42,956 nt of DNA, taken from assembly GCA_024276655.1 (NCBI GenBank), contig JAJRWU010000138.1:1-42956 (forward strand). The letters are read 5' to 3'. The notes below the pieces were generated by a model. It saw only the letters and a program-made list of their open reading frames with translations, ran no database searches and was not told the origin of the DNA. This document shows positions 1 through 24,637 of this stretch, in pieces. Each line of letters opens with the position of its first letter. The stretch's first letter is position 1. Made by a program: the position numbers and the translations under genes. This DNA comes from Planctomycetota bacterium (GTDB taxonomy: Bacteria > Planctomycetota > Planctomycetia > Pirellulales > Pirellulaceae).

Positions 1-199
1 GCACCGCAATTGAATCAAAGTCCCTTGCTTTTGGCCTAAATGCGAAAAACGCAACCCAGAAATACTGCCTTTAGTCCGCTTTGTTACTCACGACTAGCGA
101 TTCACCAAAACTCAACGTCACGCTGAACCAGTACACCTTGAGTCTGCTTGTTGCACCCAGTTTTGAAAACAGACCCATAACACACAGAGTATTTAGAAA
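1..199. other. Upstream non-coding stretch at window edge
   Basis: No convincing gene lies here. An opposite-strand open frame across 71-571 overlaps the isomerase gene and has no recognisable features, so I treat it as a shadow. The stretch is more AT-rich than the following gene and presumably holds its promoter, but I cannot pick a convincing -35/-10 pair. Confidence 0.5.
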
Positions 200-1864
200 A
201 TGACGCCCCCCCTGCCGAAGATTCGCAAACCTCGCAAGGTCGGTGATAAAACCGTGCTCTTGGTCGCCAACGGCGACCTGCGTCTCTCGGCCAACCAAAA
301 TTGCTGGCCGGCGCAACAAGCCATGGAGGAAGGGCTTTGCCGCGCCGCTGGGGAGCAAGGCTATGAAATTGCTCGGGCGCATCCTTATAAAAAAAAGGAG
401 CGGCATGGATTCATCGCCTCGCAAAAAGAGGGCCTGGAAGTTTTTTCGCAAATCGACCCCGACGCCAAACTGATCGTGGCGGAGGCGGTGTGGCAATATT
501 CCCATCATCTGTTGCCGGGGCTGATTTCGCATCGGGGCCCCATTCTCACGGTCGCGAATTGGTCGGGGCAATGGCCCGGCTTGGTCGGCATGTTGAATCT
601 AAACGGCTCGCTGACCAAGGCGGGCGTTTCCTACAACACGCTCTGGGCCGAAGATTTCAGCGAAGCTTCCTTCCAGCGCAATTTACAGCGTTGGCTGACC
701 ACGGGCGTCGTCCGCCATAAAACTTCGCATGTCGCGCCGCTGAAGAAATTGCAAGTCAGCGCCGGCGCACGGAAAATCGGCGAAGCGCTCGCCGCCGAGC
801 TACAGCACGACAAAGCGATCATGGGCGTGTTCGATGAAGGCTGCATGGGCATGTTCAACGCTATTATTCCCGACCACCTGCTGAACCCGACCGGCGTGTT
901 CAAGGAGCGGCTCAGCCAATCGGCCTTGTATTACGAAACCCGGCAAGTTGACGATGCTGAAGCGGGCGCCGTCCGGCATTGGATGGAGCGCCGCGGCATG
1001 CAGTTTCATACCGGCTCGAACCACGAACAAGATCTAACCGACGACCAGATTCTCGACCAGTGCAAAATGTACATCGCGGCGGTGCGTATTGCCGACGACT
1101 ACGGCTGCGCGACGATCGGCATTCAATACCAACAGGGCCTCAAAGATTTGTTGCCCGCCAGCGATTTGGCGGAAGGCGCCTTGAACAACAGCGACCGGCC
1201 GCCGGTGAAAAGTCGCGATGGCCGCCGCGTTCTGTATAAAGGCCAGCCGTTGCCGCATTTCAACGAAGTTGATGAGTGCGCCGGGCTCGATGCTCTGATG
1301 ACTTTTCGCGTACACCGAGCCTTGGGGCAACCGGTGGAAAATACGCTGCACGATATTCGCTGGGGCGATTTCGACGCCTCCCGTTCGACCGACGCCTACG
1401 TGTGGGTGTTTCTGATCAGCGGCTCCGCCCCGCCGGCGCATTTTGTCGGCGGCTGGAAAGGCGCCTGCAGCGAGCGGCAACCGCCGATGTATTTCCCCAA
1501 CGGCGGCGGCACGTTGAAGGGCGTTTCCAAGCCGGGCGAAATTGTCTGGTCGCGAATCTTCATCGAAAAAAATCGCCTGAAGATGGATCTCGGCCGCGCC
1601 CAAGTCGTGGCCTTGCCGCCTGAAGAAACGCAGCGCCGCTGGCAAGCCACCACGCCGCAATGGCCAATCATGCATGCCGTTTGTTATGGCGTCAGCCGAG
1701 ATCAGATGATGGCCCGGCACAAGAGCAATCATATTCACGTCGCTTACGCCGACTCACCCGCCCAGGCCGATAAAGCGATACTCACCAAGGCCGCCATGGC
1801 CCAAGCACTGGGCCTGGAAGTCGCGGTTTGCGGCACGCGCAAAAACAACAAGCCGTGGGCGTGA
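200..1864 (+). CDS. L-fucose isomerase family protein (FucI-like)
   Basis: A 554-residue soluble protein without signal peptide or membrane segment. Its C-terminal third resembles the L-fucose/L-arabinose isomerase superfamily: a glycine-rich segment after PMYFPNGGG (about residue 427), TTPQWP (about 483) and SNHIH (509-513). E325, the D358/E359 pair and H511 are plausible counterparts of the Mn-binding Glu, Asp and His of FucI; this placement is inference. Family members interconvert aldoses and ketoses, but the substrate cannot be read from sequence. The length is close to that of E. coli FucI. Only the ATG at 200 fits the start, and no strong Shine-Dalgarno is visible. The next gene begins 39 bp downstream on the same strand and is a GDP-mannose dehydratase, so an operon for deoxysugar metabolism is likely. 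Confidence 0.72.
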
Positions 1865-7050: not shown

Positions 7051-7082
7051 AACACGGATACCGCCGCCAAGCGGCCGTGTTC

Positions 7083-7105: not shown

Positions 7106-7469
7106 CTAGAGGGGGCCCGAAGGAACCGGGTGATCTCTTCAGCAAAGCATCCCAGACGAAAACACGCTGAAGCGTGAACTCCAACGGTGGGCGGCAAGTC
7201 AAACAACGACGTGCAGTTCCACAGAGGGGTTTCTTTCGTCCAATTCGCTCTTTTTTGACAATAATTATGATTGTTTGGGAACGAACGACGGGAAAAGGCC
7301 ATCGAATTGTCGGCAGAGTGTCTACCCTAAAAAAACCGCAACACAGGGTGGTTTGGGCACCCTGCTAAAGAGCGGGTTTCTGGAAACCGGTTTGTTTTGT
7401 CGACGATTCATCAGATCACACAATGGGTTAGGAAAGACATGATGTTTTTAACGTGAACGCAGTTGTCGA

Positions 7470-7497
7470 TTGAAATAGGGATTATCTGGACTATAAT
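7470..7497 (+). promoter_or_regulatory. Probable sigma-70-type promoter of the giant gene
   Basis: TTGAAA (7470-7475), a 16-bp spacer and a perfect TATAAT (7492-7497). Transcription would start near 7504, leaving a leader of about 185 nt before the ATG at 7691. Confidence 0.55.
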
Positions 7498-7690
7498 CGC
7501 AAGATGATCCTGCTAGGCGGGGGGGCTGCAAGTTTGCGCCCCTACTGTCTGAGGTGAATGCGATCTAGCCGCTCTGGTGCGATGCTACGCCGCCATTTTT
7601 CCTACGTTGCTCATCTACTGTCATTTTTTCATAGGTAGTCGATCCTCGCGTATTCGTTGAGGCTCGTCATGCACACTTAAGGGTTGCTTC

Positions 7691-10600
7691 ATGGCCATCC
7701 GACGTAATCGTTCTTTGTCGTCGAGAAAACGCCGTCAGTCCGCCACACAAAAACGAGACTTCCGCATCGAGCATTTGGAAGATCGTCGTTTGCTTGCATT
7801 TGCCGTGGGCAATGTGCTTGGCGACAATCCCGACTGGCTCCCGCCGCAAGGGAACTCCACTCCGAGCGCCTATGGATTCCCCGGAGTGATTCCGGAAGGC
7901 GCCTTGGAAACTGCCGCCGGCGCATTTGACGTTCGGTCATCGCAACTTCCAGCGGACGGCAATTCGCTGAGCCCCGAGCAAATTCAAGCCGCGTTGGCCT
8001 TGAGTATTGGCCTGCCCAACCTGAGTTACAAGGTCGACACGCTGTTGGGCGTGCCATCGTTTGTGTCGAATTCCGGCGGGTATCTGACCCAAACCTCGGC
8101 CGCCGCCGCGGAAGAGATCGCTCAAGGTTTCTTGGTCGACAACGCCGCGTTTTTTGGGCTCACCAGCGCCGACACTGCTTCGTTGGATATCGCGAACCAG
8201 CATGTTAGTAATGTCAGCGGCGTGGAGCATGTGTACCTGCAACAAACGCTCAACGGGATTGACGTTTACAACGCCGTATCGAATGTGAGCGTCGACGATT
8301 CTGGCCGCGTGTTGGTGGTGGGCAACAGTTTCGCACCCGATGTTTCCAGCAGCGTGAATCGCCTGACGCCCGCGATTTCCGCAACCAGCGCCATAGAGGC
8401 GGCTGCGGCGAATTTGGGCGTTTCCTTGACGGAGCCGCTTGCGGCGCCTGCTTCGGTCAATCCTGCTGATCGCTCCCTTACTTATTCCGATGGCGGCATT
8501 TCGCGCGACCCGATCCCCACCAAGTTGATGGTTTTCCCGACCAATCGCGGCGAATCTCGCTTGGTTTGGAACCTGACCGTCAACATGACGACCAGCTCCG
8601 ACTGGTACAACATCAATATAGACGCGGAAACCGGCGATGTTCTCAGCCGCGCGAACTACACCGCGTATGAGAGCCTTCGGGTGTTCCCGCAGCCCTTGGA
8701 AGGCCCTGCCGATGGTCTTCATACAGTCGTGACCGATCCGTTTGATCCCGTCGCCTCGCCCTTTGGTTGGTTCGACACCAACGGCGCATCCGGCGCCGAA
8801 TTTACGATCACCCGGGGCAATAATGTTTGGGCCTTTCCTGATCGAGACGGCAATACCGCCAGCGACGGCAATGAACCCAATGGCGGCGCCGCGCTCAACT
8901 TCGACTTTGCTTTTGATCCTTCCGCCTCACCGCTTACCAACCGCGATCAAGCAACGGTCAATCTGTTCTACTGGAATAACATCCTGCATGATGTTCTGGT
9001 GCGTAGCGGTTTTGATGAAGCTTCAGGTAATTTTCAGGTCACCAACTATTCCGGAAATGGGCTGGGCGGCGACGCAGTCCAGGCAGCCGCGCAATTTGGC
9101 GCCGACAACGGATCCACGGACAACGCATTCTTCGCCACGCCTCCCGAAGGCCTCTCGCCATTGATGGGAATGTTCGAGTTTACGCAAAGTAATCCGCGCC
9201 GCGATAGCGACAACTCCGCCGTGATTATTGTCCATGAGTACGCGCACGGTATTTCCAATCGGTTGATCGGCGGCCCCAACAATGTATCCGCGTTGCAAGG
9301 CCTACAAAGCGGCGGCATGGGCGAAGGCTGGGGTGACTTTTACGGCATGGCGTTGACGGGCAAAGTCGGCCAATCTGGTAATACGGTTCGCACTGTTGGC
9401 AACTATGTGCTCAACAATAGCGGCGGTATTCGCAGGCTGCCGTACAGCACCGATATGAGCGTCAATCCGCTCACGTACAACGATATCGACCCGGCACAAA
9501 TAGATGTCACCTTCCCGCCGAACCCTCCGTTTGATCCTCGGCAGAATCCGGCGGACCAAGTACACAACATGGGGGAAGTTTGGGCTTCGACGCTGTGGGA
9601 CATGTACTGGAACCTCACCAACCGAGACGGCTTCGACCCCGACCTTTACACCGGCAGCGGCGGCAATAAGTTGGCCATAACGTTGGTCACCGAAGGCATG
9701 AAGCTCACGCCGGCCCGGCCCACGATGCTGGAAGCCCGCGATGGCATCGTGGCGGCCGACGTCGCGATGAACGGCGGCGCCAACCTGCGTGAAATCTGGA
9801 CCGCCTTTGCCCGCCGCGGCATGGGATTCAGCGCTCTCGATGGCGGCAACGACAACAGCACCGCGGTTACCGAAGCTTTCGATTTACCTCCCAACCTACC
9901 CGCTCCGGGAGGCAATATTTCCGGGCCTTCGCGCGTGCCGCAATTGCTCGAAATTCAAACCAACGATGGCGAGCTTCTCCAACCCGGCGACGTGCTCAAC
10001 GTGGCGCCGCGAGAATTCCGGCTGCTGTTCGAGGGCGGCTCCAACTTGAGTGAATTCACGCTGGCCGATGGCGTGCAGTTAGTGGCCAGCGGCGGCGATG
10101 GCGATTTTTCCAACGGCAATGAAGTGATCGTCACACCCGGCTTTATCGGTCTGGGCGACACCGCCAATGAACTGATCATTCGCGTGGCGGAGGCCCTGCC
10201 CGATGATCAATACGAACTGACCGTCATCGGTTCCGGACTGCGCCCGCTAACAAACATCGCCGGCGAGCGGTTCAACGACGGCGTCGATGAAACGCGCGGT
10301 TTTGAACTTGATTTAGGCGCGCAAGTGCTGTCGGTGGTGCCCCAACCTATTGTGCGAGATAGCGGCGGGAATCTTGTTCAAAATAAACGTCAAGTCGTTG
10401 TTTACTTCAACAACGACGATTTGAACCCGGCCGACGCGGGAAATCCTGCGTTCTACCAACTGGTGCAGACCAACGACACGCTCACCGAGAACGACGATGT
10501 CATTATTCTGCCGGCGTCGGTCACGTACGACGCCGCAGCCGATACGGCCACCTTGGAATTCGCAAATGACCTGCCCGACGGAAAATTCCGTTTGCAGATC

Positions 10601-13600
10601 GGCGTTTCCGAGGAACGCGATAACAGGCTGGGCTTGGCGGTGCGGGTCGGTTCGATCTTTTCAATTGCCGGAACCGATTTCTCCACCAACGCCTCTATTG
10701 GCGACGACATCGGCGCCGACGACGTCGATTTGTATCGCTTCCGCTTGGAAGCCGCCGCCACGGTCGATATCACCGCCTCGCCCAGCGCCCTGCTCAATAC
10801 GCAGTTGCGTCTGTTCAACGACGCCGGCGTTGAACTCAATATTTCCGACAACGGCGCGGCCGGCGCGGCTGATACGCTCACTTCGTTGGCGCTGGCCGCC
10901 GGAACCTATTACGTGGGTGTTTCCAGCAGCGGCAACGCGGGCTACAACGTGCTCAATGGTTCGGGCGCCGCGGGCGGCGCTACCACAGGCGGCTACCGGC
11001 TCGATATCGATTCCTCGCTAGTCAGCAGCGCGTCGGACGATAACTCCAGCTTCGCCACGGCCACCTCACTGGGGAATTTGGGCATCGGCGGGAAAACGGT
11101 GGGAGCGGCTCTTACTCCGCAAACAGCGCTCGTGTTTCCGGGGCTTCCCGGCGGTAACGCCGAACCGGGGCACCGCCAGATTCCCGTGGAAGATCACGGC
11201 GCCGGCAGCGGCATCGGCGGCGGCGATAACACCGTGGAAACGCTTTCATTCTTTTTTCCAGTTATCTACGGTAGCGACCCAATAACCGGCGCCCCGCTCA
11301 CCAACGCCATTACCGAAAACCAGAAAGACCGCACTCGCGAAATTTTCGCCTTGTACGGCGAGTACCTGGGGGTGGATGTTCAGGAAACACTCGGCGGCGG
11401 AACCTCAATCGCCACCGGCGATGCACGCGCTTTAGATCCGACCATCCCGCCGGGTGTCAGCCTAGGCGGTCCGGGCGCTGTTGTCATTGCCAATGGCAAT
11501 TTCGGCGATAGCCCCTACGGCGGCGGCTGGTTCGGCGTGGCGTTTCATGAAATCGGCCATAGCATCGGTTTGGGCCACTCCTATGATATTCCCTCGATTC
11601 AAGGATCGGGGCTGCCCGGCGAGCCCGTTTTCCCAGGCGACAACGACCTCGTTCACGCCAAGCGGCTGCATCCTCTGGTGGGAACCGATGTCGACCTCTA
11701 TCAATTCGATGTGACGGAGCCGGGCGTGTTCTCGGCGGAAACCCTCGCCGAACGTCGGGCCTCCGGCGATACCGGCCTCGATTCCGTCTTGCAGTTGTAC
11801 CGAGAGGTGAACACGCCCAGCGGCGTGGTCCGGGAACTACTGGCCCAGAACGACGACTACTTCAGCAGCGACCCGTACCTCAACCTTCCCCTGGCGCCCG
11901 GCCGCTATTACCTGGGCGTGAGCGCTACGGGCAATACGAATTACGACCCCACCATTTCCGATTCCGGTTTTGGCGGCACGTCGCAGGGCGCTTATGACCT
12001 TAAAATTGATTTCGCGCCCGACACGCTCGCCACGCTCAACGACGCCACCGGCGTCGCACTCGATGGCGATGCCGACGGCGCCCCCGGCGGTGCGTTCAAC
12101 ACTTGGTTCCAAGTGGGCAATACGATTTTTGTCGACAAAGCGAACGACACCGTTGCCGGGCCGAACGGCGCAGGTACGCTGGCTGATCCGTTCGACACGG
12201 TCAGCACCGCCTTGGCCTTTGCTGATAGCCCCTTCAACAATGTGGACATCGTCCGCATCGTGGGCAACAACCTCGACCGCCCGTATTTAATCGGTGAGAA
12301 CAACGCGGGTTTGAACCTGGCCGACGGGCGGGAATTCCTGGTTCCCCAAGGCGTGACGGTCATGATCGACGCCGGCGCCGTGTTCAAACTGCAACAAGCA
12401 ATTATTGACGTCGGCTCGAACAGCATCACGCTCGACCGCTCCAACGGCGTGCTGCAGGTGCTTGGCGTCCCGGAGAGCCCGGTCGTGTTCACTTCATTGC
12501 GCGACGACAGCATCGCCGGCGACAGCGATGGCCTGAGCGGCGCGCCCGCGCCCGGCGACTGGGGCGGCTTGGTCTTCAACGCCGATTCCGATTACGAAGA
12601 CGCCGGCATTTTCCTCAATTTGGTCAATAACGCGGACCTCCGTTACGGCGGCGGCAAGGCGTTTGTCAATTCGGTGGAAGACACCTTCTCACCGATTTTT
12701 CTGGCTACCGCTCGGCCGACGATTTCTTACAACACCATTACTAACAGCGCCAACTCCGCCATTTCCGCCGACCCCAACAGTTTTGATGACGTGCTCGGCC
12801 GAATTGGTCCCGATGTGTACGGCAACCGCGTTTTTGATAACAGTATTAACGGCCTGTTTGTGAGGGTTCGTGTTGGCGCCAACAACGTGATCGACAAACT
12901 CACGGTCAACGCTCGGTTTGACGACAACGACATCACACACGTTTTCACCGAAAATCTGGTGATCGAAGGCACTCCCGGCGGCCCGCTCTCGGGCGTGGCG
13001 CGTTTCGATGCGCGTTTGGCGATCGATCCCGGCGTTACGGTGAAACTTGCTAGTTCGCGGATTGATGTCGGTTTCGGCGCCCAATTATTGGCCGAAGGCA
13101 CGCCGGCGCTGCCGGTGGTGTTCACCTCGCTCGCCGACGACAGCTACGGCTTCGGCAACACATTCGACACCAACAACGACGGCGCCATCACGACGCCCGC
13201 TCCGGCCGATTGGTCGGGGCTCCTTTTCCGGCAGGTGGCCACCGGTAGTCTGGATAACGCCCTGGTGGCCTTCGGCGGCGGCACGTCGAAACTCAACGGG
13301 CAGGTGGAAGAGTTCAACGCGATTGAAATCCAACAGGCCGACGTCCGCATTGCCAACAGCACGATTGAAAACAATGCCGCCGGGCAAACCAACGCCGCCC
13401 GCAACGGCCTGAGAGGGAATCGGGCCACGGCGATTTTTGTTCGCGGAGCGCAGCCGATTCTGGTCGATAACATCATCCGGAATAATGAAGGCGCCGCGAT
13501 CAGCATCAACGCCAATGCGATGCAAGCCACGCGCCGCCCCGATTACGGGCGGAGCACCGGCCCGGCCGACCAATTCCAGGATTTTGCCGACAACGCCGGC

Positions 13601-16600
13601 CCCTTGGTGCGTTTGAACCGCTTGGCCGACAACGACCTCAACGGCATGGAAGTCCGCGCTGAAAGGGTGGTTATTGATTCCATCTGGGACGACACCGGTA
13701 TCGTTCACATTGTGAACGGCGATATCTCGGTCGGTAATTTACACACGTTCGGCAGCCTGCGATTAGAGAGCAGCCGTAGCGAGAGTTTGGTGGTGAAGTT
13801 GGCCGGCTCCACCGCCGGTTTCACCGCCACCGGCGCCCCCGGCGATATCGACGACCGCATCGGCGGCACGGTGCAAATCATCGGGCAGGCGGGCCGCCCG
13901 GTTATTCTCACTTCGCTCTCCGACGACACCGTCGGCGCTGGTTTCACGCCAAATGGACAGGCGCAAATCGACACCAACGGCAATGGCCCCAGCACCGGTT
14001 CCGCCGGCAATTGGCGCAGCGTGCGCTTTGAAAAATACGCCAACGACGCCAACACTGCGTTGGTCAACGAAGCGGAGGCTTCCAGCACCGACGGCGTCGA
14101 TATCAACGGCGCTCCGATCGAAGCCGAATTCCTGGGCGAACTGGCGCCCGACGAAAAAAGCGGCGACGACAACCGCCGATTGGGCTTTGACGTCAACGGC
14201 TTTATTAGCTTGAACGACGCCGCCGATGTTGACGTCTATAGCTTCACGGGAGTTGCGGGGTCTCGCGTCTGGATCGACATCGACCGCACCTCCGTCGAGT
14301 TGGATACGATCGTGGAATTGATCGACGCCAATGGCGCGGTTCTGGCCCGCTCGCTCGACGCGGGGAATCTCACCGGATTGGCCACTACGCTTACCGCCAC
14401 GGGTTTCCTCGGCGGCGATTTTTACACCACCAACCCGCGCGACGCCGGTTTTGAAGTCGTGCTTCCGGGCAACGCCGGAGATTCCGATACGTTTTTTGTC
14501 CGCGTGCGCAGCCAACCCCAGGCGGGCGAGATTAACGACATCAGCAAGGGCCAAACGCGGGGCGACTACCAACTCGGCATTCGCCTGCGGCAAGATGAAC
14601 GGCCCTCCGGCTCGACCGTGCAACTGGCCGATATTCGCTTCGCCACCAACGGCATTGAACTGATCGGCCTGCCGAATCAGTCGCCGCTGATTGGCGAATC
14701 GACGGAAACGCGAGCCAATAACGACAGTTTTGCCGCGGCCCAACCGCTGGGGAATTTGCTGTCGAGCGATCGGAACACGATCAGCGTCGGCGGCGTGCTT
14801 TCCAACGCCAACGATGTCGATTGGTACAAATTCGAAGTCGACTACGATTTGATCCAATCGATTGGCGGTGTGAACGGCGGCCCCAAATCGTTCGCCACGG
14901 TGTTCGATATCGATTGGGCCGACGGTTTGGCGCGGCCCGATACGATTCTCTCCGTGTTCGATGCACAGGGCAACTTGATACTCGTCAGCCGCGATTCCAA
15001 CGTGCAAGACGATCGGGCCAACGGCGGCGGCGGCCCCGGCGACCTAACCGATCTCACCTCCGGTTCGTTTGGTCCGTTGGATCCTTACATCGGCCCGGTG
15101 CAGTTGCCGGCTGGCAGCCCGGCGGGCGGTAGCAGTACGTATTACGTGGCGATTTCCTCCAACGCCCGTATTCCGACGGCCCTCAACTCGCAATTCGAAT
15201 CGAATGCCGCGAAGCCGAACGTGCGTTTGGAGCCGATCAATTCGATCAACCGCGTGGTCGACGACCGCATCGGCTCGGTTGGCTACACCAGTGGCTCCGA
15301 ACTCAGCGGGAACGCACCAGTATTGCCGCAACTACCGGCAGGTGGAGGTGACGCTCCGCCAATCTTGCCGATCAACGGCAATGCTCTCTCGCTGGATACC
15401 AACGTGATTCAGTTCACGTTGGCGGACGTGCGCTTGTTCGTGAGCCAGCCGAGGCGGCTCTATACCGTGGATCCGCTCAACGGCGGCAACGTGGTGAACG
15501 TCGGGAATTTGTCAGGGGGCAATAATGGGATTCAGGATATCGAAATACGGTCGGATGGCCGGTTGATAGGTTACGAAAGCTTGTTCAACACCGCCAACAC
15601 CGCTAGGCAAGTCGTGCAGATTAATCCTGATACGGGCGCGTCGTTGAACGCCAACCGAGACAGCATTCCAAATGTGCCTGTTCCTCCTCCGAACCCGCCG
15701 GTTCCCAGTCAGCTAACAACCGATATGGTCGACGCGGTGGCCTTCCGGCGCACTGGAGTCGGTGTGTACGGCCAAGTATTCTACTCGGTGAGAGACGGTG
15801 CGACCTCCCGGTTATATTCTGCAAATCCCACGACTCTTTCGGCCGCGCCGGTGCAGAACCAACCTTGGGGCACGCGAGGCACGATCGACGCGGGCGGAAT
15901 CACTGGCGGCATGGCCATCGGCAACAATGGCATGCTTTACGGCGTGAACAATTTTGGCAGCTTCTACTCAATCAACACTGGCAATGCCCAAACAACCCTA
16001 AGGGGTTCCGTACCGGGGGCGAACTTCGTCGGGTTAGCCTTGGGGCCTCAGAATGTGAACGACGGCGCCTATCGAAACATGTTGTTCGCCATCACGCAGG
16101 GCGGAGATTTATACGCCTTTGACACGAGTGGTAATCTACAACCGATCTTCAACGGCGCTACGAGCGTGAATGTTGGGCAAGGTGGTTTAACCGGTTTGGC
16201 CTTCTCGCCGCTCGATTTCAACCTTTGGCATCCGACCACGCAGCGCGGCGGCGACCCCGGCCACGGCGTGACACAGGCCTTCGATTTCAGCCGCGACGAC
16301 TCAACGGCCTTTGGCGCGACCGTCGGCGACGATGCCAACGGCCGTGCGGTGGATGTGGACGAGCGTTCCGGCGGCGCCAGTTTCTACTTCGGCCTGGAAA
16401 ATTTTGTCTCAAACCCCGGCAACGGCAACTATCTGCCCTACGACACCAACAACACGCAACTGGGCATTTTAGGTCAGCGAGAACAAGAAGACCTCACCAG
16501 CAACCCCAGCATCGGCGGCAACTTCAATCTGCCGGGCGGCGCCAAGGGCAGCCTCGTGACCAACGAATTCAGTTTGGCCGGCTCCGTCGGCGATGACCTG

Positions 16601-19600
16601 CCGACGCTGTACTTCACCTATTTCCTCGATACGCAAGGCGCGAATTCAACTTCCGCCATGGCCGATAGCGCCCGGGTTTCCATTTCGAGCGATGGCGGCG
16701 CGAATTGGAGTTTACTGGCCACCAACAACTCCGTCCTGTCAACGCCCCAAACTCCCGCTGAGTTGGCGCAATTCCTTTCCACGTCGGCCAATGGCGCCGG
16801 CGCCGGCAAGACGCAAACGCAGGTGGTGCAGGAACTGTTTGATACCGCCAATTGGCGGCAGGCGCGGGTCGACCTGCGAGATTACGCCGGGCAAAGCAAC
16901 ATCACACTGCGGTTCGATTTCAGCACCTACGGCACGCTGAACCAAGGGCTTCCGGGCGATGGTTCTGGTGATATCACTAACCCACGCGGCGGGCGAGACA
17001 ACAACTTTGAAGGTTTTTATATTGATGATATCGTGGTCGGTTACGCCGAACGCGGCGAAATCGTCAGCGGCGATGCGGGCGGCAACAGCCTGAACACGGT
17101 CGCCTACAACGTGCCGGAGAATCCCGACCTTCAAGCGCCGGAACAGGCGTTGGCGGGCGCCTACCAACTGGAAATTCGCCGTGGTACGGAGTTCATCGCG
17201 GGCGAGGGCGGCGCCGGCAACCCGGTGACCGCGATCGATGCCCTCACTTTGGTTTCACAGGGGTTGTTGCAAGACACCAACTATCGGTTTATCCGCGAAA
17301 ACAGCGGCTTGGGCGACCGCAACCTGCCGCGCGAGCAGGGCCATATTCAAATCGAAGGCAATCGGATCAGCAATGTTACGGAATTCGGCATCCGGGTGGA
17401 CGCCGGCGTTCGCGAAGCAGGCAACAGCCTTCAGTTTCCGGGCGGCGTGCGCAACTTGCCGGGCTTGAACGCCCAACGTTTGGCGCCGGGCGTTACGTTG
17501 AAAAGCAACCTGATCACGTTCGTGGGGCAAGGCGGCATTTTCTTCAGCGGCGACCCCAACCCGGGCAGCACGCCGTTGGCTTCGGTGCCGTTTGGCCGCA
17601 TCGTGAACAATACGATTTACGGTGGCAACCAGGCCGTGGGCGATGGCATTTTGGTAACGGAAAACGCCGGCCCGACGATCTTGAATAACATCATCTCGAA
17701 CACCGCGACCGGCATTTCGGTTACCAGTTCGCCGCAAACGGTGGTGGTCTCGAACCTGTTCAAGGATAACACCGCCAACGGGCTTGTCGGCGCGGACGCA
17801 ATCACGCTGTCGAGCACCGATCCTTTGTTTGTCGACCCGGTTTTGGAGAATTTCTATCTGGCCAATGGCTCGTTGGCGGTGGATAGCTCCCGCAACACCT
17901 TGAATGAGCGCGCCGGCATTGAGGCGGTGAAGTCGATCGTGGGCATTTCGCCATCCACCATCAACGCGCCGACGCGCGATGTGTTTGGCCAACTCCGGGT
18001 CGACGACCCCTCGGTTGATCCGCTGGGACAAGGCGCCAACGCCTTTATTGATATGGGCGCCGTGGAACGCGCCGATTTCGCACAGCCGTTCGCCTCCTTG
18101 ATCGCTCCCTTCGATAACGATGTGGAAGGCGTCGACCTGGATCCCATTCGCACGGTGGTTCAACTTGAGAACGGGTTGATCACGAGGTTCCAGATATTGT
18201 TCGACGACGCCCGCGGCTTGGGCGTCGATCCGGCAACGATTTCAGCCCGTTCGATTATTTTGAATCGCGACGGCAAACGCCTGATCGATGGCGTCGACTA
18301 CACGTTCGGCTTCAACGCCACCAGCGGCGTGATTGAGTTGACGCCCTTGACGGCCATCTGGCTGCCCGATAGCACCTACACCATTCGCTTGGCGAACCGC
18401 GAAGTCACGATCGCCACCGTTTCCGATGGCGGCAACATCCAGGATGGTGATTCCTTCACCATTACCGATACCGCCGGCTCGCCGGTAACGTTTGAATTTG
18501 AAAGCGGTTTGAGCTTGCAGATTCCCGAAACGCTGACCATCGAAGTTCCGTTGGCTGGCGGTTCGCCGGGCGGCATCGTGGATGGCGACCGATTCACTTT
18601 CAATTTCGAGCAGTTCGAGTTCGACAGCAACGGCCAAGCCAGCAGCCGCTTCGTGATTCCGTTCGGCGACGGGGCGAATCCGTCGTCGCGCGAGGAAATT
18701 GCCGACGCCATCGTTGTGCAACTCCAAGCGGCGGGCGTTGGCGTGCCCCGCAATCTGGGCGATGGCGTGGTGCGTTTGGGTAGCCAAGCTGGTGATTTTC
18801 TCAGTACGGCCGGCGCCCCGACGCTCATTCGTGGAGGGATTGCCGGCGGCGTGGGTGATGGCCAAACCTTTACGATCACCAATGGCGCCAGTTTGGTCGA
18901 TCCGATCAACACGCCGGAGCAAATCGTTACGTTTGAATACGAGAACACCGATGTCGCGGTTCCCGACGGCGTGGCGCCGGGCAACATTGCCATACCGTTT
19001 AGCCTCGCCGATTCCGCCGATGAAATTGCTATCGTGACCGGCCAGATTGTGGCCGCCACGGCGGCGGTGGAGTTGCCAGTCGCCCAATTTGTGGGCGATG
19101 GCCGCGTTCACTTGGGCGGCCGGGAAAATACTCCCACGCGAAATGGCCACTTGATCGATTCGTCGCTGACCACCGTTTCCGATTTCGGCGACGCCGGCGT
19201 GCTTACCTCGCTGAGACTCAATCTTCCCGGCGGGCGCGACCTCTTCGTGCCTGCGGCGGGCGGCCAACTCGGCGGCCACAACGGCGGCATCAGCGATGGC
19301 GATACCTTTACCATCGACGACGGCGTCACGCGAACCACGTTCGAGTTTGATCACAACGGAATTAGCAATCCCAATAACACCATCATTGCCTTCTCCCCCT
19401 TCTTCACCCAGGCGCAACTCGCGATCTCGATCGTGGTCACTTTGCAGAACGCGCCGAACTTGAACTTGAACCCGGTGAACCTGGGAAATGGCCAGATCTT
19501 CATCGGCGGCACGCCGGCCCACATACTTACGGTTGATAGCCGCACGCTCAAGCAACCGTTCAAACCGGGCCGCCTAACCGATGGCGAAACCTTCACTTTG

Positions 19601-22600
19601 GTCGAAGGCTCCAGCACCCTGACCTTTGAGTTCGACAGCGACGGAAACGTCGCGACCGGAAATACTCCCGTCAATTTCGCCACCGTGAGCACGGCCGATC
19701 AGATCGTGGACGAAATGGTCCGCGTGATTGGGCTTTCCGGTTTGAACGTGTCTCCCCGGAAACTCGGCAGCGACTTCCTGGAATTGGGCGAACTGGTGGG
19801 CGTTCAGGTCGACACGACGGGAACATCCGTATTCGCCACTGGTGTTTCGGGGGGCACGGAGCGCATCGATTTCGTTCCCTCAACAACGGCCAACCCCGCC
19901 GAATTGGTTGCCACACTGGTCGTGGCGGCAATTGCCAACAGCCCGCTGCAAGGCGTGTCGCCGGTGCAAGATGGTTCGCAACTGATTTTCACAGGCGTGG
20001 GCAGCATTGTTGGGTTGGCGAATACCACGGTGGTCGGCATTGCCGATAACGCCGGAAACCTGCTCGCGCCCAATCAGCCCGCCGGCGTCACGTCGTTCAC
20101 GGTTCTTACGCCCGCCCTTCAACTCGACTTTGGCGATGCTCCCGATCCCTCCTACCCCACGTTGGCTGCAAGCAATGGCGCCCGCCATATTATTACCGAC
20201 ACGCCCTTGTTCCTGGGAGCCCGGGTGGACGCCGAAACCGATGGCCAGCCCAACGCGGCCGCCTCCGGCGACGATGCGTTCGACATCATTACAGCACTCA
20301 GCACGTTGACTGTTGTGTTTGACAGCAACGATGTGCAATCGCTCCAAATTCCAGAGAACGCCGGCGTGGCCGATGTGAACGACGGCGATGTTTTCCAAAT
20401 AGATAACGGCGCCGTTTCGGTGGCCTTCGAGTTCGACAGCGATGGCCTGACCACCGAAGGCAATGTCGTGGTTCCGTTCGCGGGCGGTGAAACAGCCGAT
20501 CAAATCGCCGACCTCCTCGTGGCGGCTATCGGCGGCGCGGGGCTGGGAGTGACGCCGACCAAGTCGGCGAACAACGTGCTGCCCAACAACGACGACGAAG
20601 ATGGCGTCTCGTTCCTGAGCAAATTCAACTCCTTCCTCGATACCTCGATCGAAGTGATCGCCTCGGGCGCCGGCTTGCTCAATGCCTGGATCGACTTCAA
20701 CGCCGATGGCGATTGGGACGACGCCGGCGAGCAGGTGTTTGTCGATGAACAGTTGGCCTCGGGGGTCAACCCCTTAACCATTCGCACGCCCATGGGCGCG
20801 GTGGCTGGCCTAACCTATGCTCGCTTCCGCTTCAGCACCGACGCCGGCCTCTTGCCCACGGGCCTCGCCTCCGATGGCGAAGTGGAAGACTACCAAATTG
20901 ATATTATTCCCGGAACGCCTCCCACGGTGGTCGACGACCCCTCGCCCGCCAACACGCCGGCGTACACCACGACCGAAAATGCCTTGTTGACGATCAACCC
21001 CGCCGCCGGCGTGGTGGCCAACGACTTCGACCCCGATGGCGATGCTTTCAGCGTCAGCAGTTTTGACGCGCTGAGCGCCAACGGCGCGGCGGTCGTTGTG
21101 AATGCCGATGGCTCATTCACCTATGATCCCGACGGCCCGCTCGATTTCCTGGCCTTTGGCGAGGAACTGTTCGACACCTTCACGTATACGGCGTCCGACG
21201 TCAACGGTTTGACATCGACCACCGCCACCGCCACGATTCGCGTGCTCGGAAGAAACGACGCCCCCGTCGCCATTGACAACGCGTACGCCACCGATGAAGA
21301 AACGTCGGTCATCGGCAACGCCCTTACCGACAACACCGGTTTAGGCGTCGATTTCGATCTTGATGCGAGTAACACGCTGACCGTCATTTCCATCAATGGC
21401 GGCGCGCTTGGCGGCGGCGTTGTGTTGCCCTCGGGCGCCTCGGTCACACTGGCCGCCAACGGCGATTTCACCTACGACCCCTCAAACGCCGCTTTTGCGA
21501 ATCTACTGGCGGCGGGTGAAAACGGTGTCGATTCCTTCACCTATTCAATTAGCGATGGCAGTGGCGGCGTGGCAACCGCCACCGTATCGCTTACCATTCA
21601 AGGCGTGAATGATTCGCCCGTCGCGACCGACAACGCCTACACGCTCGATGAAGACAGCACCCTGGCGGCGAACGCTATTCTAGACGACACCGGCGCCGGC
21701 GCCGACTCCGATCCAGACGCCTCCGACATGCTCGCCGTCACCCTCGTTAACGGAAACGCGGCCGATGTTGGTAATAGCGTCGTGCTGGCTTCCGGCGCCA
21801 CCCTGACCCTCAACGCCGATGGCTCGTTCCTTTACGACCCGACGGTCGCGATGAACTCCTTGGCGGTGGGAGAGTCGATGGCCGACCTCTTCACCTATAC
21901 GATTTCAGATGGCCTCGCCACGTCACGGGCGACGGTGTCGTTAACCATCACAGGACGCAACGACGCCCCCATAGCCTTCGACAACGCCTACGCCACCGAT
22001 GAAAAAACGACCGCCCTCGGCGACCTCGTCGGCGACGATACCGGAGACGGCCTCGATTTCGATCCAGACGCCAACGATATTTTGGTGGTCTCGGCGGTCA
22101 ACGGCGTTGCGGGCAATGTTGGCGGCACACTCTCGTTGCCCTCGAACGCGCAGCTTACCGTGCAGGCGAACGGCGTGTTCGCCTACAACCCGACCACCTC
22201 CGGCGGTTTTAATGCCTTGGGCGTTGGTGAATCGGCGGTGGAAACGTTCACGTACACCATCGACGATGGAAATGGCGGAGCCTCCACGGCCACCGCAACC
22301 ATTTCGATCAGCGGTGTGAACGATCAGCCTATTGCCAACGCGAAGTCGTTCGTCACCGATGAAAACACGCTCTTTTCTGAAAACATCATTAACGGCGGCG
22401 GCGCCGCCGATTCTGATATCGATCAATCAGATATCCTCAGTGTGGTGGCCATCGATGGCGCCACTGGCGCTGTGGGGCGGGAAGTGGTGCTTCGCTCCGG
22501 CGCGAGGTTGACCGTCGAAGCGGACGGTTCCTTTGTGTACGACCCCACAACCTCGCCCGCGTTGAACGCCCTGCCAGCTGGGCAATCAACCTCCGACACA

Positions 22601-24637
22601 TTTTCATACACCATTAGCGATGGCCAAGGCGGTTTCGCCTCGGAAACCGTTGCCATACAAGTGACGGGCGTGAACGACGCCCCCGTCGCGGTGGATAACA
22701 CCTACAATGTGAACGAAGACACCGCTCTGAGCGGCGACCTCATTCTCAATAATTCGGGCAATGGAATTGACGCCGACCCCGAAGGCGGACTTCTGGAAAT
22801 TTCCCGAATCAATGGCGTGGCAATATCCGATGGCGACGTCATAGTGCTGGCGTCGGGCGCGGAGCTCACGATCTTAGTTAACGGCCAGTTTACCTACTCG
22901 GCCATTCCGGCGTTTGACGGGCTTTCAGTGGGTGAGACCGCAAACGACGACTTTAACTACACATTAATCGACGACCAAGGCGTGGAGTCGACCGCGAACG
23001 TTACCATTACCATTACCGGCGAGAACGATGCGCCGGTTGCAATAGACAACAGCTATGGCGTCAACGAAGACGTCACGGTTATTGGGAATATGCTGGTCGA
23101 CGTTGACGCTACACTCGGCGCCGATTTTGACGTCGACGCTCTCGATTTCCTCGTGGTTTCCGCGGTTGAGGGCAGCACCGCCGCCGTCGGGCTTAACATC
23201 ACACTGCCTTCCGGCGCCAAACTCGACACGGCGGCCGATGGCACATTCGAATACGACCCCAGGTCATCAAGCGTATTCGGCGCCCTGGCTCCCGGTGAAA
23301 CAGCGTCCGATTCCTTCATCTACACGATTACCGATGGCAACGGCGGTTTCTCCACCGCCACGGTGTCGATTACTGTGAGCGGCGTGAACGACGGTCCCCT
23401 GGCCACGCTGAATATTTACAGCACCAATGAAGACACGGCGGTGTCTGGGAATGTTATCAGCGAAGACACCGGCGCCGGCGCCGACCAAGACCCCGATATC
23501 ACCGACATACTCGCTGTCTCGGCGATCAACGGCAATACCTCCGATGTGGGTTCAACCATCACCTTGCCTTCGGGCGCCGAGCTGGTTGTCAACGCCGATG
23601 GCTCCTTCACGTACGACCCCTCCACTTCCTTGGCGCTGAACGCCTTGGCCGTGGGGGCGCCGGGAACCGATTCCTTCATTTACACGATCGACGACGGAAA
23701 CGGTGGATCCGACACGGCCCTGGTGGCCATTTCCGTCACCGGCGTGAATGATCGGCCGGTCGCGGGGGCCGATACCGCCAGCACCACGACAGCCTCCTCG
23801 GTCACGATTGCTGTTCTCGCCAACGACACCGATATCGACGGCGTGATTGATCCTAACAGTCCGAATGTGTTGGTCGTTGACCGGCTGCCAGACTTTGGCT
23901 CGCTTTCTCTCAACGGCGACGGCACGATCAACTACCAAGCCGACAGTTTGTTCGTCGGGCAAGACACCTTCCAGTACCGCGTACGCGACGATCAAGGCGC
24001 GCTTTCGCTGCCGGCCATCGTCACGATTGACGTCAGCCAAGGCAATCCTGGTTTTACCAACCCAAGAAACCCGGCCGACGTCAACGACGACGGCAACGTC
24101 GATCTTCAAGACGTGTTGATCTTGATCAACGACCTGCGCGAAAATGGCAATCCCCATGTGCTCACGCCTCCGGCTTCGGGAGTCGCTCCGTTTGTTGATA
24201 CGAACGGCGATCTTTCGGTCAGCACTTCCGATATTATCGTCGTGCTGCAAGCACTGAGAACCCAAGAGGCGGAAGGCGAATCGGCGCCGGCTGGCGTGCT
24301 GGATTTGTCTCCGCTGCAATACCCTTCAACGCCTTCGACGCCAATCACGCTGGACACGCCCTCGGCGGTGAGTCCTTCCGCTGCGAATTTGGCGACTGCG
24401 AATTTGGCGACTGCGGAACCGGCGGCTTCCGACCAGGCGGTGCTGCCGTCGTTCGGCGCCAATTCGCCGGCGTTGGAAAGCAGTTTTGCTCGTTATGGTT
24501 CTTCCGGCAGCCGACATCGTTTGCAAGACCTGGAAACCGCGTTAGATGACATCGCCGACGACGTTTCCTCGGAGTGGAAGGAAAACAGCCAGGGAGATCC
24601 GCTAGGCGACATCGATGGCTTCCTACCTCCCGCGTAG
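7691..24637 (+). CDS. Giant modular surface protein: M36 fungalysin-like and metzincin-like proteases, beta-helices, cadherin-like repeats, dockerin
   Basis: An uninterrupted 5648-residue ORF with AAGGG 7 bp before the ATG. There is no classical signal peptide: a basic N-terminus is followed by LEDRRLL (29-35), an LEPR-XLL-like motif of planctomycete surface proteins. Approximate order: FTP propeptide 90-215; M36 peptidase 325-735 with H515-E-Y-A-H519 and E545; Ig-like 740-990; PPC 990-1115; metzincin-like domain with H1286-E-I-G-H1290 and H1296; PPC 1331-1450; beta-helix 1477-2110 with three PVxxTSLxDD modules; two PPC 2125-2500; propeller-like 2590-2860; jelly-roll-like 2875-3120; beta-helix 3214-3470; five FEFDSDG modules 3575-4140; GEVED region 4141-4406 holding a sixth module; nine cadherin-like repeats 4411-5448; dockerin 5460-5515; acidic tail. 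No Met-turn methionine follows the metzincin histidines. It is probably an extracellular protease/adhesin attached through its dockerin (inference). Confidence 0.9.
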   Translation: MAIRRNRSLSSRKRRQSATQKRDFRIEHLEDRRLLAFAVGNVLGDNPDWLPPQGNSTPSAYGFPGVIPEGALETAAGAFDVRSSQLPADGNSLSPEQIQAALALSIGLPNLSYKVDTLLGVPSFVSNSGGYLTQTSAAAAEEIAQGFLVDNAAFFGLTSADTASLDIANQHVSNVSGVEHVYLQQTLNGIDVYNAVSNVSVDDSGRVLVVGNSFAPDVSSSVNRLTPAISATSAIEAAAANLGVSLTEPLAAPASVNPADRSLTYSDGGISRDPIPTKLMVFPTNRGESRLVWNLTVNMTTSSDWYNINIDAETGDVLSRANYTAYESLRVFPQPLEGPADGLHTVVTDPFDPVASPFGWFDTNGASGAEFTITRGNNVWAFPDRDGNTASDGNEPNGGAALNFDFAFDPSASPLTNRDQATVNLFYWNNILHDVLVRSGFDEASGNFQVTNYSGNGLGGDAVQAAAQFGADNGSTDNAFFATPPEGLSPLMGMFEFTQSNPRRDSDNSAVIIVHEYAHGISNRLIGGPNNVSALQGLQSGGMGEGWGDFYGMALTGKVGQSGNTVRTVGNYVLNNSGGIRRLPYSTDMSVNPLTYNDIDPAQIDVTFPPNPPFDPRQNPADQVHNMGEVWASTLWDMYWNLTNRDGFDPDLYTGSGGNKLAITLVTEGMKLTPARPTMLEARDGIVAADVAMNGGANLREIWTAFARRGMGFSALDGGNDNSTAVTEAFDLPPNLPAPGGNISGPSRVPQLLEIQTNDGELLQPGDVLNVAPREFRLLFEGGSNLSEFTLADGVQLVASGGDGDFSNGNEVIVTPGFIGLGDTANELIIRVAEALPDDQYELTVIGSGLRPLTNIAGERFNDGVDETRGFELDLGAQVLSVVPQPIVRDSGGNLVQNKRQVVVYFNNDDLNPADAGNPAFYQLVQTNDTLTENDDVIILPASVTYDAAADTATLEFANDLPDGKFRLQIGVSEERDNRLGLAVRVGSIFSIAGTDFSTNASIGDDIGADDVDLYRFRLEAAATVDITASPSALLNTQLRLFNDAGVELNISDNGAAGAADTLTSLALAAGTYYVGVSSSGNAGYNVLNGSGAAGGATTGGYRLDIDSSLVSSASDDNSSFATATSLGNLGIGGKTVGAALTPQTALVFPGLPGGNAEPGHRQIPVEDHGAGSGIGGGDNTVETLSFFFPVIYGSDPITGAPLTNAITENQKDRTREIFALYGEYLGVDVQETLGGGTSIATGDARALDPTIPPGVSLGGPGAVVIANGNFGDSPYGGGWFGVAFHEIGHSIGLGHSYDIPSIQGSGLPGEPVFPGDNDLVHAKRLHPLVGTDVDLYQFDVTEPGVFSAETLAERRASGDTGLDSVLQLYREVNTPSGVVRELLAQNDDYFSSDPYLNLPLAPGRYYLGVSATGNTNYDPTISDSGFGGTSQGAYDLKIDFAPDTLATLNDATGVALDGDADGAPGGAFNTWFQVGNTIFVDKANDTVAGPNGAGTLADPFDTVSTALAFADSPFNNVDIVRIVGNNLDRPYLIGENNAGLNLADGREFLVPQGVTVMIDAGAVFKLQQAIIDVGSNSITLDRSNGVLQVLGVPESPVVFTSLRDDSIAGDSDGLSGAPAPGDWGGLVFNADSDYEDAGIFLNLVNNADLRYGGGKAFVNSVEDTFSPIFLATARPTISYNTITNSANSAISADPNSFDDVLGRIGPDVYGNRVFDNSINGLFVRVRVGANNVIDKLTVNARFDDNDITHVFTENLVIEGTPGGPLSGVARFDARLAIDPGVTVKLASSRIDVGFGAQLLAEGTPALPVVFTSLADDSYGFGNTFDTNNDGAITTPAPADWSGLLFRQVATGSLDNALVAFGGGTSKLNGQVEEFNAIEIQQADVRIANSTIENNAAGQTNAARNGLRGNRATAIFVRGAQPILVDNIIRNNEGAAISINANAMQATRRPDYGRSTGPADQFQDFADNAGPLVRLNRLADNDLNGMEVRAERVVIDSIWDDTGIVHIVNGDISVGNLHTFGSLRLESSRSESLVVKLAGSTAGFTATGAPGDIDDRIGGTVQIIGQAGRPVILTSLSDDTVGAGFTPNGQAQIDTNGNGPSTGSAGNWRSVRFEKYANDANTALVNEAEASSTDGVDINGAPIEAEFLGELAPDEKSGDDNRRLGFDVNGFISLNDAADVDVYSFTGVAGSRVWIDIDRTSVELDTIVELIDANGAVLARSLDAGNLTGLATTLTATGFLGGDFYTTNPRDAGFEVVLPGNAGDSDTFFVRVRSQPQAGEINDISKGQTRGDYQLGIRLRQDERPSGSTVQLADIRFATNGIELIGLPNQSPLIGESTETRANNDSFAAAQPLGNLLSSDRNTISVGGVLSNANDVDWYKFEVDYDLIQSIGGVNGGPKSFATVFDIDWADGLARPDTILSVFDAQGNLILVSRDSNVQDDRANGGGGPGDLTDLTSGSFGPLDPYIGPVQLPAGSPAGGSSTYYVAISSNARIPTALNSQFESNAAKPNVRLEPINSINRVVDDRIGSVGYTSGSELSGNAPVLPQLPAGGGDAPPILPINGNALSLDTNVIQFTLADVRLFVSQPRRLYTVDPLNGGNVVNVGNLSGGNNGIQDIEIRSDGRLIGYESLFNTANTARQVVQINPDTGASLNANRDSIPNVPVPPPNPPVPSQLTTDMVDAVAFRRTGVGVYGQVFYSVRDGATSRLYSANPTTLSAAPVQNQPWGTRGTIDAGGITGGMAIGNNGMLYGVNNFGSFYSINTGNAQTTLRGSVPGANFVGLALGPQNVNDGAYRNMLFAITQGGDLYAFDTSGNLQPIFNGATSVNVGQGGLTGLAFSPLDFNLWHPTTQRGGDPGHGVTQAFDFSRDDSTAFGATVGDDANGRAVDVDERSGGASFYFGLENFVSNPGNGNYLPYDTNNTQLGILGQREQEDLTSNPSIGGNFNLPGGAKGSLVTNEFSLAGSVGDDLPTLYFTYFLDTQGANSTSAMADSARVSISSDGGANWSLLATNNSVLSTPQTPAELAQFLSTSANGAGAGKTQTQVVQELFDTANWRQARVDLRDYAGQSNITLRFDFSTYGTLNQGLPGDGSGDITNPRGGRDNNFEGFYIDDIVVGYAERGEIVSGDAGGNSLNTVAYNVPENPDLQAPEQALAGAYQLEIRRGTEFIAGEGGAGNPVTAIDALTLVSQGLLQDTNYRFIRENSGLGDRNLPREQGHIQIEGNRISNVTEFGIRVDAGVREAGNSLQFPGGVRNLPGLNAQRLAPGVTLKSNLITFVGQGGIFFSGDPNPGSTPLASVPFGRIVNNTIYGGNQAVGDGILVTENAGPTILNNIISNTATGISVTSSPQTVVVSNLFKDNTANGLVGADAITLSSTDPLFVDPVLENFYLANGSLAVDSSRNTLNERAGIEAVKSIVGISPSTINAPTRDVFGQLRVDDPSVDPLGQGANAFIDMGAVERADFAQPFASLIAPFDNDVEGVDLDPIRTVVQLENGLITRFQILFDDARGLGVDPATISARSIILNRDGKRLIDGVDYTFGFNATSGVIELTPLTAIWLPDSTYTIRLANREVTIATVSDGGNIQDGDSFTITDTAGSPVTFEFESGLSLQIPETLTIEVPLAGGSPGGIVDGDRFTFNFEQFEFDSNGQASSRFVIPFGDGANPSSREEIADAIVVQLQAAGVGVPRNLGDGVVRLGSQAGDFLSTAGAPTLIRGGIAGGVGDGQTFTITNGASLVDPINTPEQIVTFEYENTDVAVPDGVAPGNIAIPFSLADSADEIAIVTGQIVAATAAVELPVAQFVGDGRVHLGGRENTPTRNGHLIDSSLTTVSDFGDAGVLTSLRLNLPGGRDLFVPAAGGQLGGHNGGISDGDTFTIDDGVTRTTFEFDHNGISNPNNTIIAFSPFFTQAQLAISIVVTLQNAPNLNLNPVNLGNGQIFIGGTPAHILTVDSRTLKQPFKPGRLTDGETFTLVEGSSTLTFEFDSDGNVATGNTPVNFATVSTADQIVDEMVRVIGLSGLNVSPRKLGSDFLELGELVGVQVDTTGTSVFATGVSGGTERIDFVPSTTANPAELVATLVVAAIANSPLQGVSPVQDGSQLIFTGVGSIVGLANTTVVGIADNAGNLLAPNQPAGVTSFTVLTPALQLDFGDAPDPSYPTLAASNGARHIITDTPLFLGARVDAETDGQPNAAASGDDAFDIITALSTLTVVFDSNDVQSLQIPENAGVADVNDGDVFQIDNGAVSVAFEFDSDGLTTEGNVVVPFAGGETADQIADLLVAAIGGAGLGVTPTKSANNVLPNNDDEDGVSFLSKFNSFLDTSIEVIASGAGLLNAWIDFNADGDWDDAGEQVFVDEQLASGVNPLTIRTPMGAVAGLTYARFRFSTDAGLLPTGLASDGEVEDYQIDIIPGTPPTVVDDPSPANTPAYTTTENALLTINPAAGVVANDFDPDGDAFSVSSFDALSANGAAVVVNADGSFTYDPDGPLDFLAFGEELFDTFTYTASDVNGLTSTTATATIRVLGRNDAPVAIDNAYATDEETSVIGNALTDNTGLGVDFDLDASNTLTVISINGGALGGGVVLPSGASVTLAANGDFTYDPSNAAFANLLAAGENGVDSFTYSISDGSGGVATATVSLTIQGVNDSPVATDNAYTLDEDSTLAANAILDDTGAGADSDPDASDMLAVTLVNGNAADVGNSVVLASGATLTLNADGSFLYDPTVAMNSLAVGESMADLFTYTISDGLATSRATVSLTITGRNDAPIAFDNAYATDEKTTALGDLVGDDTGDGLDFDPDANDILVVSAVNGVAGNVGGTLSLPSNAQLTVQANGVFAYNPTTSGGFNALGVGESAVETFTYTIDDGNGGASTATATISISGVNDQPIANAKSFVTDENTLFSENIINGGGAADSDIDQSDILSVVAIDGATGAVGREVVLRSGARLTVEADGSFVYDPTTSPALNALPAGQSTSDTFSYTISDGQGGFASETVAIQVTGVNDAPVAVDNTYNVNEDTALSGDLILNNSGNGIDADPEGGLLEISRINGVAISDGDVIVLASGAELTILVNGQFTYSAIPAFDGLSVGETANDDFNYTLIDDQGVESTANVTITITGENDAPVAIDNSYGVNEDVTVIGNMLVDVDATLGADFDVDALDFLVVSAVEGSTAAVGLNITLPSGAKLDTAADGTFEYDPRSSSVFGALAPGETASDSFIYTITDGNGGFSTATVSITVSGVNDGPLATLNIYSTNEDTAVSGNVISEDTGAGADQDPDITDILAVSAINGNTSDVGSTITLPSGAELVVNADGSFTYDPSTSLALNALAVGAPGTDSFIYTIDDGNGGSDTALVAISVTGVNDRPVAGADTASTTTASSVTIAVLANDTDIDGVIDPNSPNVLVVDRLPDFGSLSLNGDGTINYQADSLFVGQDTFQYRVRDDQGALSLPAIVTIDVSQGNPGFTNPRNPADVNDDGNVDLQDVLILINDLRENGNPHVLTPPASGVAPFVDTNGDLSVSTSDIIVVLQALRTQEAEGESAPAGVLDLSPLQYPSTPSTPITLDTPSAVSPSAANLATANLATAEPAASDQAVLPSFGANSPALESSFARYGSSGSRHRLQDLETALDDIADDVSSEWKENSQGDPLGDIDGFLPPA
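18440..20110 (+). repeat. Tandem FEFDSDG modules (five copies, coding)
   Basis: Five divergent modules of roughly 80-145 residues inside the giant protein. Each starts with D-G-(D/E/Q)-x-F-T-(I/L/F), followed by FEFDSDG or a variant, a TADQI-like helix and a closing V..LG.G...LGG strand. DGDxF-type starts lie near nt 18444, 18581, 18855, 19291 and 19576. A sixth copy is at about 20276-20587. I do not recognise a named domain. Confidence 0.75.
20921..24034 (+). repeat. Nine cadherin-like (tandem-95/VCBS-type) repeats (coding)
   Basis: Nine modules of about 115 residues encode residues 4411-5448 of the giant protein. Most start NDxPVAxDNxYxxxEDT and contain VLPSGAxLTxxADGSFxYDP and DxFxYTIxDGxGG. 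The first starts PPTVVDDPSPANTPAY and the ninth is degenerate. Acidic calcium-binding character is typical of such adhesive stalks. Confidence 0.85.
24068..24232 (+). other. Dockerin type I domain (coding)
   Basis: Two EF-hand-like calcium loops encode residues 5463-5474 (D, N, D, G, D pattern in DVNDDGNVDLQD) and 5503-5514 (DTNGDLSVSTSD), near the C-terminus of the giant protein. In clostridia such pairs bind cohesins; in planctomycetes the partner is generally unknown. Confidence 0.85.
24381..24410 (+). repeat. 15-bp tandem duplication within the giant gene tail
   Basis: CTGCGAATTTGGCGA occurs twice in a row, encoding the duplicated ANLAT in the low-complexity tail. The period is a multiple of three, so the frame is kept. 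Confidence 0.9.

Follow-up and report, generated by a model that had tools for sequence, protein, structure and literature searches.

A giant planctomycete protein carrying an M36 protease and a metzincin-like unit apparently nested in a PPC-type domain

In the ADAM family, a metzincin domain is carried by adhesion-type proteins, and many members, the pseudopeptidases, are ligand-dead (PMC11266112). By analogy, this family is the nearest functional parallel to the protein considered here. The methionine of the metzincin Met-turn is described as invariant; MMP-2 was only slightly disturbed by Leu or Ser at this position, and serralysin with His, Ser or Asn in its place was too unstable to be isolated (PMC1266349). 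Huge planctomycete proteins are also on record, as giants with Big_9, Cadherin and Dockerin_1 domains to which Planctomycetota is the biggest contributor (PMC11573180). The word "peptidase" is missing from the main text of that article, which therefore does not name a nested protease module. Titles and abstract beginnings in the literature on planctomycete giant proteases, M36/PPC proteins, PPC insertions, pseudo-metzincins and Gln at the Met-turn likewise do not describe the module reported below, which leaves its absence from the full texts unproven.

The window, that is, the whole stretch of DNA analyzed (42,956 nucleotides), is one contig of a draft host genome of 5.96 Mb. A preliminary description had reported, in its giant frame P0001, two zinc-protease motifs within one chain of 5648 residues. 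This was confirmed, with coordinates and residues correct (Table 1). P0001 contained exactly two HExxH motifs, at 515 and 1286, which is far beyond chance, as the residue content of P0001 (29 His, 198 Glu, and 650 Gly) predicts 0.005 HExxH and ~3e-6 HExxHxxGxxH. A chance motif or an assembly artefact might nevertheless be suspected, given the draft state of the assembly, but nothing else speaks for it. Besides the minute expected count, both sites were intact in a congener (G001), whose contig was collinear with window positions 290-16908 except for three gaps of up to ~0.7 kb. An assembly error is thus disfavoured and, the congener's contig with the same architecture already refuting it, such an explanation has practically no probability left. 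P0001 carried surface-type domains recognized by Pfam. Its C-terminus scored 22.8 bits against a cut-off of 22.9 for dockerin type I (PF00404), and no cohesin partner for this dockerin-like end was found in the genome itself, the assembly of which is 96% complete. As a further observation, cysteine was counted zero times across the 5648 residues (window 7691-24637).

Table 1. Features of the giant frame P0001, in window coordinates
Feature	Residues	Position	Strand	Evidence
Giant ORF P0001	5648 aa	7691..24637	+	ATG start, 0 internal stops
Weak planctomycete extracellular N-terminal motif	25-36	7763..7798	+	PF07595 E 0.12, under cut-off
FTP propeptide motif	167-214	8189..8332	+	Pfam PF07504 E 7.3e-11
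M36 fungalysin catalytic domain	330-715	8678..9835	+	Pfam PF02128 E 1.1e-123
HEYAH (zinc ligands His515, His519; catalytic Glu516)	515-519	9233..9247	+	motif scan, 4k90 alignment
Glu545, M36 third zinc ligand, in GMGEGWGD	545	9323..9325	+	aligned with 4k90
Linker (Ig-like in the preliminary description)	745-985	9923..10645	+	Pfam match absent
PPC domain	1011-1079	10721..10927	+	Pfam E 2.1e-13
Second PPC-type domain (host of the metzincin-like insert), N-terminal strands	1104-1149	11000..11137	+	model strands 22-26, 32-38; ColG alignment
Metzincin-like catalytic domain, apparently nested in PPC-type domain	1154-1331	11150..11683	+	MMPs, model 51..228, Z ~12
HEIGHSIGLGH	1286-1296	11546..11578	+	motif scan
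Gln1304, Met-turn position, 8 residues past His1296	1304	11600..11602	+	alignment
Host PPC/FDP-type domain, C-terminal part	1332-1447	11684..12031	+	NF038127 39.5 bits; model strands 231-340
Further PPC stretch		14225..14377	+	E 7.7e-5, under Pfam cut-off
Right-handed beta-helix		17336..17893	+	PF13229 E 6.9e-16
GEVED domain		20678..20899	+	Pfam E 1e-15
~Nine cadherin-like / Big_9 repeats		20936..24028	+	Pfam E 1e-97; NF012211
Dockerin type I-like C-terminus		24074..24256	+	Pfam E 1e-4, 0.1 bit short of cut-off

By its sequence, the upstream unit is a member of M36. It matched PF02128 with 413.5 bits (cut-off 23.3) over profile positions 3-368 of 368, and aligned with the fungal Mep 4k90 at E 4e-80, HEYAH falling on HEYTH. 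Alignment with 4k90 and 7z6t also placed the third-ligand Glu: E545, which had been proposed as a metal ligand, coincides with the same Glu (GGMGEGW) of the solved fungal enzyme. The FTP-M36 unit with H515, E516, H519, and E545 was thus found intact, its propeptide lying upstream (PF07504, E 7.3e-11). The window's unit shares with 4k90 and Pfam M36 the FTP propeptide, a complete catalytic domain, HEYxH, and the third-ligand Glu. Unlike fungal Mep, it sits in a surface-type giant of 5648 residues, and it did not reach the cut-offs that NCBIfam sets for its models of bacterial M36 linked to sortase or T9SS. H, E, H, and E were kept in 29/29 M36 rows reaching the site, short and weak rows such as L042 and L059 included. 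For M36 enzymes, cutting off their own FTP propeptide is ordinary, and membership of the family suggests that the window's unit is very probably an active protease maturing in this way. Its omega between the two congeners was 0.113 (few changes, simple counting method). Fourfold sites differed at 28 of 330 in residues 90-715, lower than downstream (Fisher p 7e-6). A recent acquisition of M36 was dropped as a candidate, equally low divergence patches occurring elsewhere in the congener comparison.

The second motif, HEIGHSIGLGH, was present as described, with the full ligand set H1286, H1290, and H1296. The two zincin units are indeed unrelated, the third ligand being Glu in M36 and the third His in the second unit. 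In profile searches of both segments, M36 was over its cut-off and matrixin was not: PF00413 gave 19.5 bits with the whole protein and 21.1 with the module alone, vs a cut-off of 24, the match covering the zinc motif (1281-1302, E 9.5e-4). At the family level, 72 of the 76 aligned module members matched PF00413 at E<=0.01, and a profile made from these 76 found MMP structures (E 9e-8, profile positions 107-220), the family's Met aligning on the Met-turn Met of MMP-1. At this position, the window's protein has Gln1304. The AlphaFold2 model of residues 1104-1447 (mean pLDDT 86.4, pTM 0.81, with low confidence over 1154-1180) contained an active-site helix at 1278-1291 and a further helix at 1317-1326. 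HExxHxxGxxH would therefore lie on an active-site helix in a matrixin-like fold, as the metzincin assignment of the preliminary description implied, and MMP-9 (4h2e) superposed on the model with Z 12.5 and rmsd 3.0 over 141 aligned residues. With matrixins (MMPs, karilysin), the unit shares the predicted fold, HExxHxxGxxH, and a Met-turn position that lies 8 residues past the third His. Unlike M10 matrixins, it has Gln for Met and is apparently nested in a PPC-type domain, and a matrixin-style cysteine switch would be impossible within the cysteine-free P0001. Because both the Met-turn and the Pfam cut-off tests failed, we filed the unit as metzincin-like, and the strict labels "metzincin" and "matrixin" were not kept. 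A strongly conserved EPGHR..H segment (residues 1154-1169, window 11150-11197) precedes the catalytic domain; it was largely kept in dead modules as well (G1160 1.00, R1162 0.90, H1161 0.68).

Foldseek alone gave similar E-values for MMPs, for PPC/collagen-binding domains, and for the clostridial enterotoxin C-terminal domain. Its top row, pro-meprin, was set aside (rmsd 16.8, TM 0.22). With VIA-align, MMPs spanned model residues 51-228 (Z ~12, rmsd ~3) and clostridial collagen-binding domains spanned 3..338 (Z 13.9, rmsd ~2), these ranges giving first and last residues only. The best structural match was ColG s3b (4hpk_B), with 113/113 residues aligned. In the model, two strands precede the insert and seven come after it, and the flanking sequence reads SSFATATSLG before and TDVDLYQF after. 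NCBIfam found an FDP/PPC-type domain at 1332-1438 (NF038127, 39.5 bits vs 29), the FDP profile beginning after the insert, at profile position 16; PF04151 fell just short of its cut-off on this host copy (24.0 vs 25.9 bits). Profile match and fold both pointed to a host of the PPC / FDP (DVUA0089) type. On the alignment ranges, the secondary structure, and the flanking sequence, the simplest reading is that a protease was apparently inserted into a PPC-type domain, between the first strands and the DxDxY strand, where ColG s3b has no such insertion. This amends the layout first proposed, in which an Ig-like and a PPC domain separated the two proteases: the PPC domain at 1011-1079 is real, the Ig-like label found no Pfam match, and the second site is predicted to lie within a further PPC-type domain.

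The examined relatives of the second unit were divided about equally between intact and dead sites. Among 119 module rows covering the site, a hand-picked subset of the hits without several weaker and contig-end ones, H, E, H, and H were all kept in 59 (53 also with the Gly), and 60 had lost one or more zinc ligands, the catalytic Glu, or both. On a tree of 115 rows, built without active-site columns, with four rows not entered and direction not inferred, the intact and dead states required 17 changes, at least six of them forced by starred branches, vs a shuffled mean of 39. Of the positions conserved at >=80% in the intact or the dead set, eight dropped by more than 0.35 in dead rows (1218, 1257, 1260, 1286, 1287, 1290, 1296, and 1298), drops were smaller at 1158, 1161, and 1219, and most were alike. 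A dead member (L216) was predicted to have the same fold (pLDDT 86.7; ColG Z 13.7, MMP-9 Z 12.5) from an alignment of mostly intact members. The two other full modules of the window's own genome (L104 and L105) were both dead. Their omega values vs the congener were 0.035 and 0.093 (0.034 and 0.112 in the metzincin part), and at 0.03-0.11 these copies look constrained; for the window's metzincin part, omega was 0.092 (few changes, simple counting method). Dead copies show that modules can be retained without catalysis, which counts against reading the window's unit as active.

At the Met-turn, the 59 ligand-intact modules had 42 Met, 14 Gln, 2 Leu, and 1 Asn in a visual count. Within the named set, which holds the best 80 of 385 relatives and is biased toward close, intact modules, 74/80 kept all ligands, with 51 Met, 22 Gln, and 1 Leu. 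L194 is an example of the Met type. The Met/Gln label changed 11 times on the module tree over the 51 ligand-intact rows that carry it, labels being taken from a text pattern under which L061 and L014 came out as N. Gln at this position could weaken or abolish catalysis. The role of the Met-turn is an old question, for which a natural family alternating Met and Gln gives ready-made comparisons.

These data raised the question of whether the window's second unit is already a pseudoprotease, its ligands kept and its activity lost through Gln1304 and lack of need, so that it would serve as a structural or binding module only. The frequent loss of catalytic residues (60/119) from a scaffold most of which is conserved to the same degree, the low omega of the dead copies in the same genome, the dead module in the sole M36 fusion of another genus (see below), and the instability of serralysin Met-turn mutants (PMC1266349) would all agree with it. 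However, the window and its congener keep every catalytic residue, and Gln in 22/74 ligand-intact named modules would be odd if Gln meant death. We regard an already inactive unit as rather unlikely. The metzincin-like unit, with all catalytic residues kept and apparent constraint, is probably still a zinc-binding, cleaving protease in which Gln replaces the Met-turn Met. A stand-alone relative of the metzincin part (L266, G794:C89) was also seen, in a frame of 287 aa with the motif QEIGHALGLGH, whose first residue is Gln; the tail of this frame is presumably PEP-CTERM-like.

The second unit recurs as a module in giant proteins of planctomycetes. It was found in 61/98 related genomes, the window's own included, most hits being in genomes without M36, and named relatives were nearly all titled planctomycetes; a cultured species, Roseiconus nitratireducens, also carries a module (L227). 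In a sample of 392 genomes of the phylum, modules were matched across both halves in 20, each sharing family, order, or class with the window. M36 occurred in 12/98 near relatives, 25/396 genomes of the order, and 59/392 of the phylum (52 over cut-off). Among the order's 27 genomes with M36 (25 from the 396-genome sample plus G048 and G056 from the 98 near relatives), three had both units in one frame, namely the window's own (G000), its congener G001, and G357, of another genus; modules were sought there with one sequence at E<=1e-5, which may miss weak ones. The phylum sample, with up to five candidates scored per genome, had M36 plus module only in G000. In the G357 fusion (module L086), M36 was intact and the module had lost H, E, H, and H. 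Two label changes were needed on the M36 tree, likewise on starred branches alone (a quick tree, with one very long row). Since L086 also stood far from the window on the module tree, M36 and the module were likely joined in two separate fusions. Other giants had a true N-terminal matrixin (L067, L069, and L075 by Pfam, more by motif). As M36 or matrixin was found there in different giants, the N-terminus is a place where proteases get added.

Among further giants, L267 (G463:C1) combined in one frame the module, a leishmanolysin-like domain (PF01457, E 1.4e-8), and HEIGHAAGF. A 6306-aa frame of the window's own genome (L268, G000:C297:19081-19419) matched the PPC part of the module only. A 282-kb contig of G357 (C183) held five module-bearing giant frames of ~6,300-11,100 aa, one with M36.

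The frequent removal of PPC domains after secretion had suggested a staged self-processing, in which M36 matures, removes PPC parts, and so frees or activates the metzincin. The presence of both units in one chain agrees with it, and there is a precedent in a secreted M4 protease whose mature forms, carrying a single PPC domain or lacking it, are stable (PMC3327674). Yet the second catalytic domain is apparently inserted in a PPC-type domain and would be broken if that PPC were removed. Moreover, most sampled module genomes had no M36 match (module in 61/98, M36 in 12/98), and the units met in only 3/27 M36 genomes of the order, in one case (L086) as an intact M36 with a dead module. M36 was seen in the flank of just 1 of 80 named module loci (L186; forward frames within 6 kb, often less, the best 80 of 385). 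Staged self-processing is possible on the sequences, with no conserved basis here, and we consider it improbable.

The reading that we favour, with reasonable though not strong confidence, is a secreted surface giant with an ADAM-like protease/pseudoprotease module, onto which M36 was grafted. P0001 would be secreted and of surface type, its core belonging to a planctomycete family in which a PPC/collagen-binding-type domain hosts a matrixin-like catalytic insert. The N-terminus would, in the window's genus, have gained a complete FTP-M36 protease. The giant would likely act as a long tether, its repeats binding extracellular polymer or neighbouring surfaces and holding the proteases there. 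Like ADAM pseudopeptidases, the module puts a metzincin-type domain into adhesion-type proteins, with many ligand-dead members (PMC11266112). ADAMs differ in having unrelated domain partners, and their pseudopeptidases typically keep the Met-turn, whereas ligand-intact members of the module often have Gln.

Several relatives carried modules ~17-36 kb apart on the same strand. Of 22 scored pairs of neighbours no more than 40 kb apart, a limit chosen once the data had been seen and with statistics that ignore kinship, 14 were dead upstream and intact downstream, 1 was the reverse, 6 were dead/dead, and 1 was intact/intact; "intact" here means that H, E, H, and H are kept, three intact ones being without Gly. 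G284 and G306, added as a test once the pattern had emerged, were both dead upstream and intact downstream and are among the 14. Two looser pairs, 44-47 kb apart (G357 and G048), were intact/dead and were excluded from the count. Beside the window gene, no giant gene was present among the ten scanned neighbours, which include fucose-isomerase-like, GDP-mannose dehydratase, LamG/beta-helix, URO-D, cytochrome c, and DUF1501 genes. Zinc sites that changed repeatedly between intact and dead on a conserved scaffold, together with ordered dead/intact pairs, would make a bacterial parallel to ADAM pseudoproteases and offer a first handle on the function of planctomycete giant proteins. Tentatively, and short of calling it probable, we propose a planctomycete counterpart of ADAM: a giant family with a nested metzincin-like domain and a Gln/Met turn, about half of whose members are fold-conserved pseudoproteases, in which an upstream dead and an intact giant may pair in many genera and M36 or matrixin was added N-terminally in few lineages. 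The paired frames were adjacent, with gaps of ~100-380 bases, in the six genomes read on both sides (G028, G023, G059, G007, G040, and G038), and adjacent giant pairs were also noticed in G036 and others (L270-L278).
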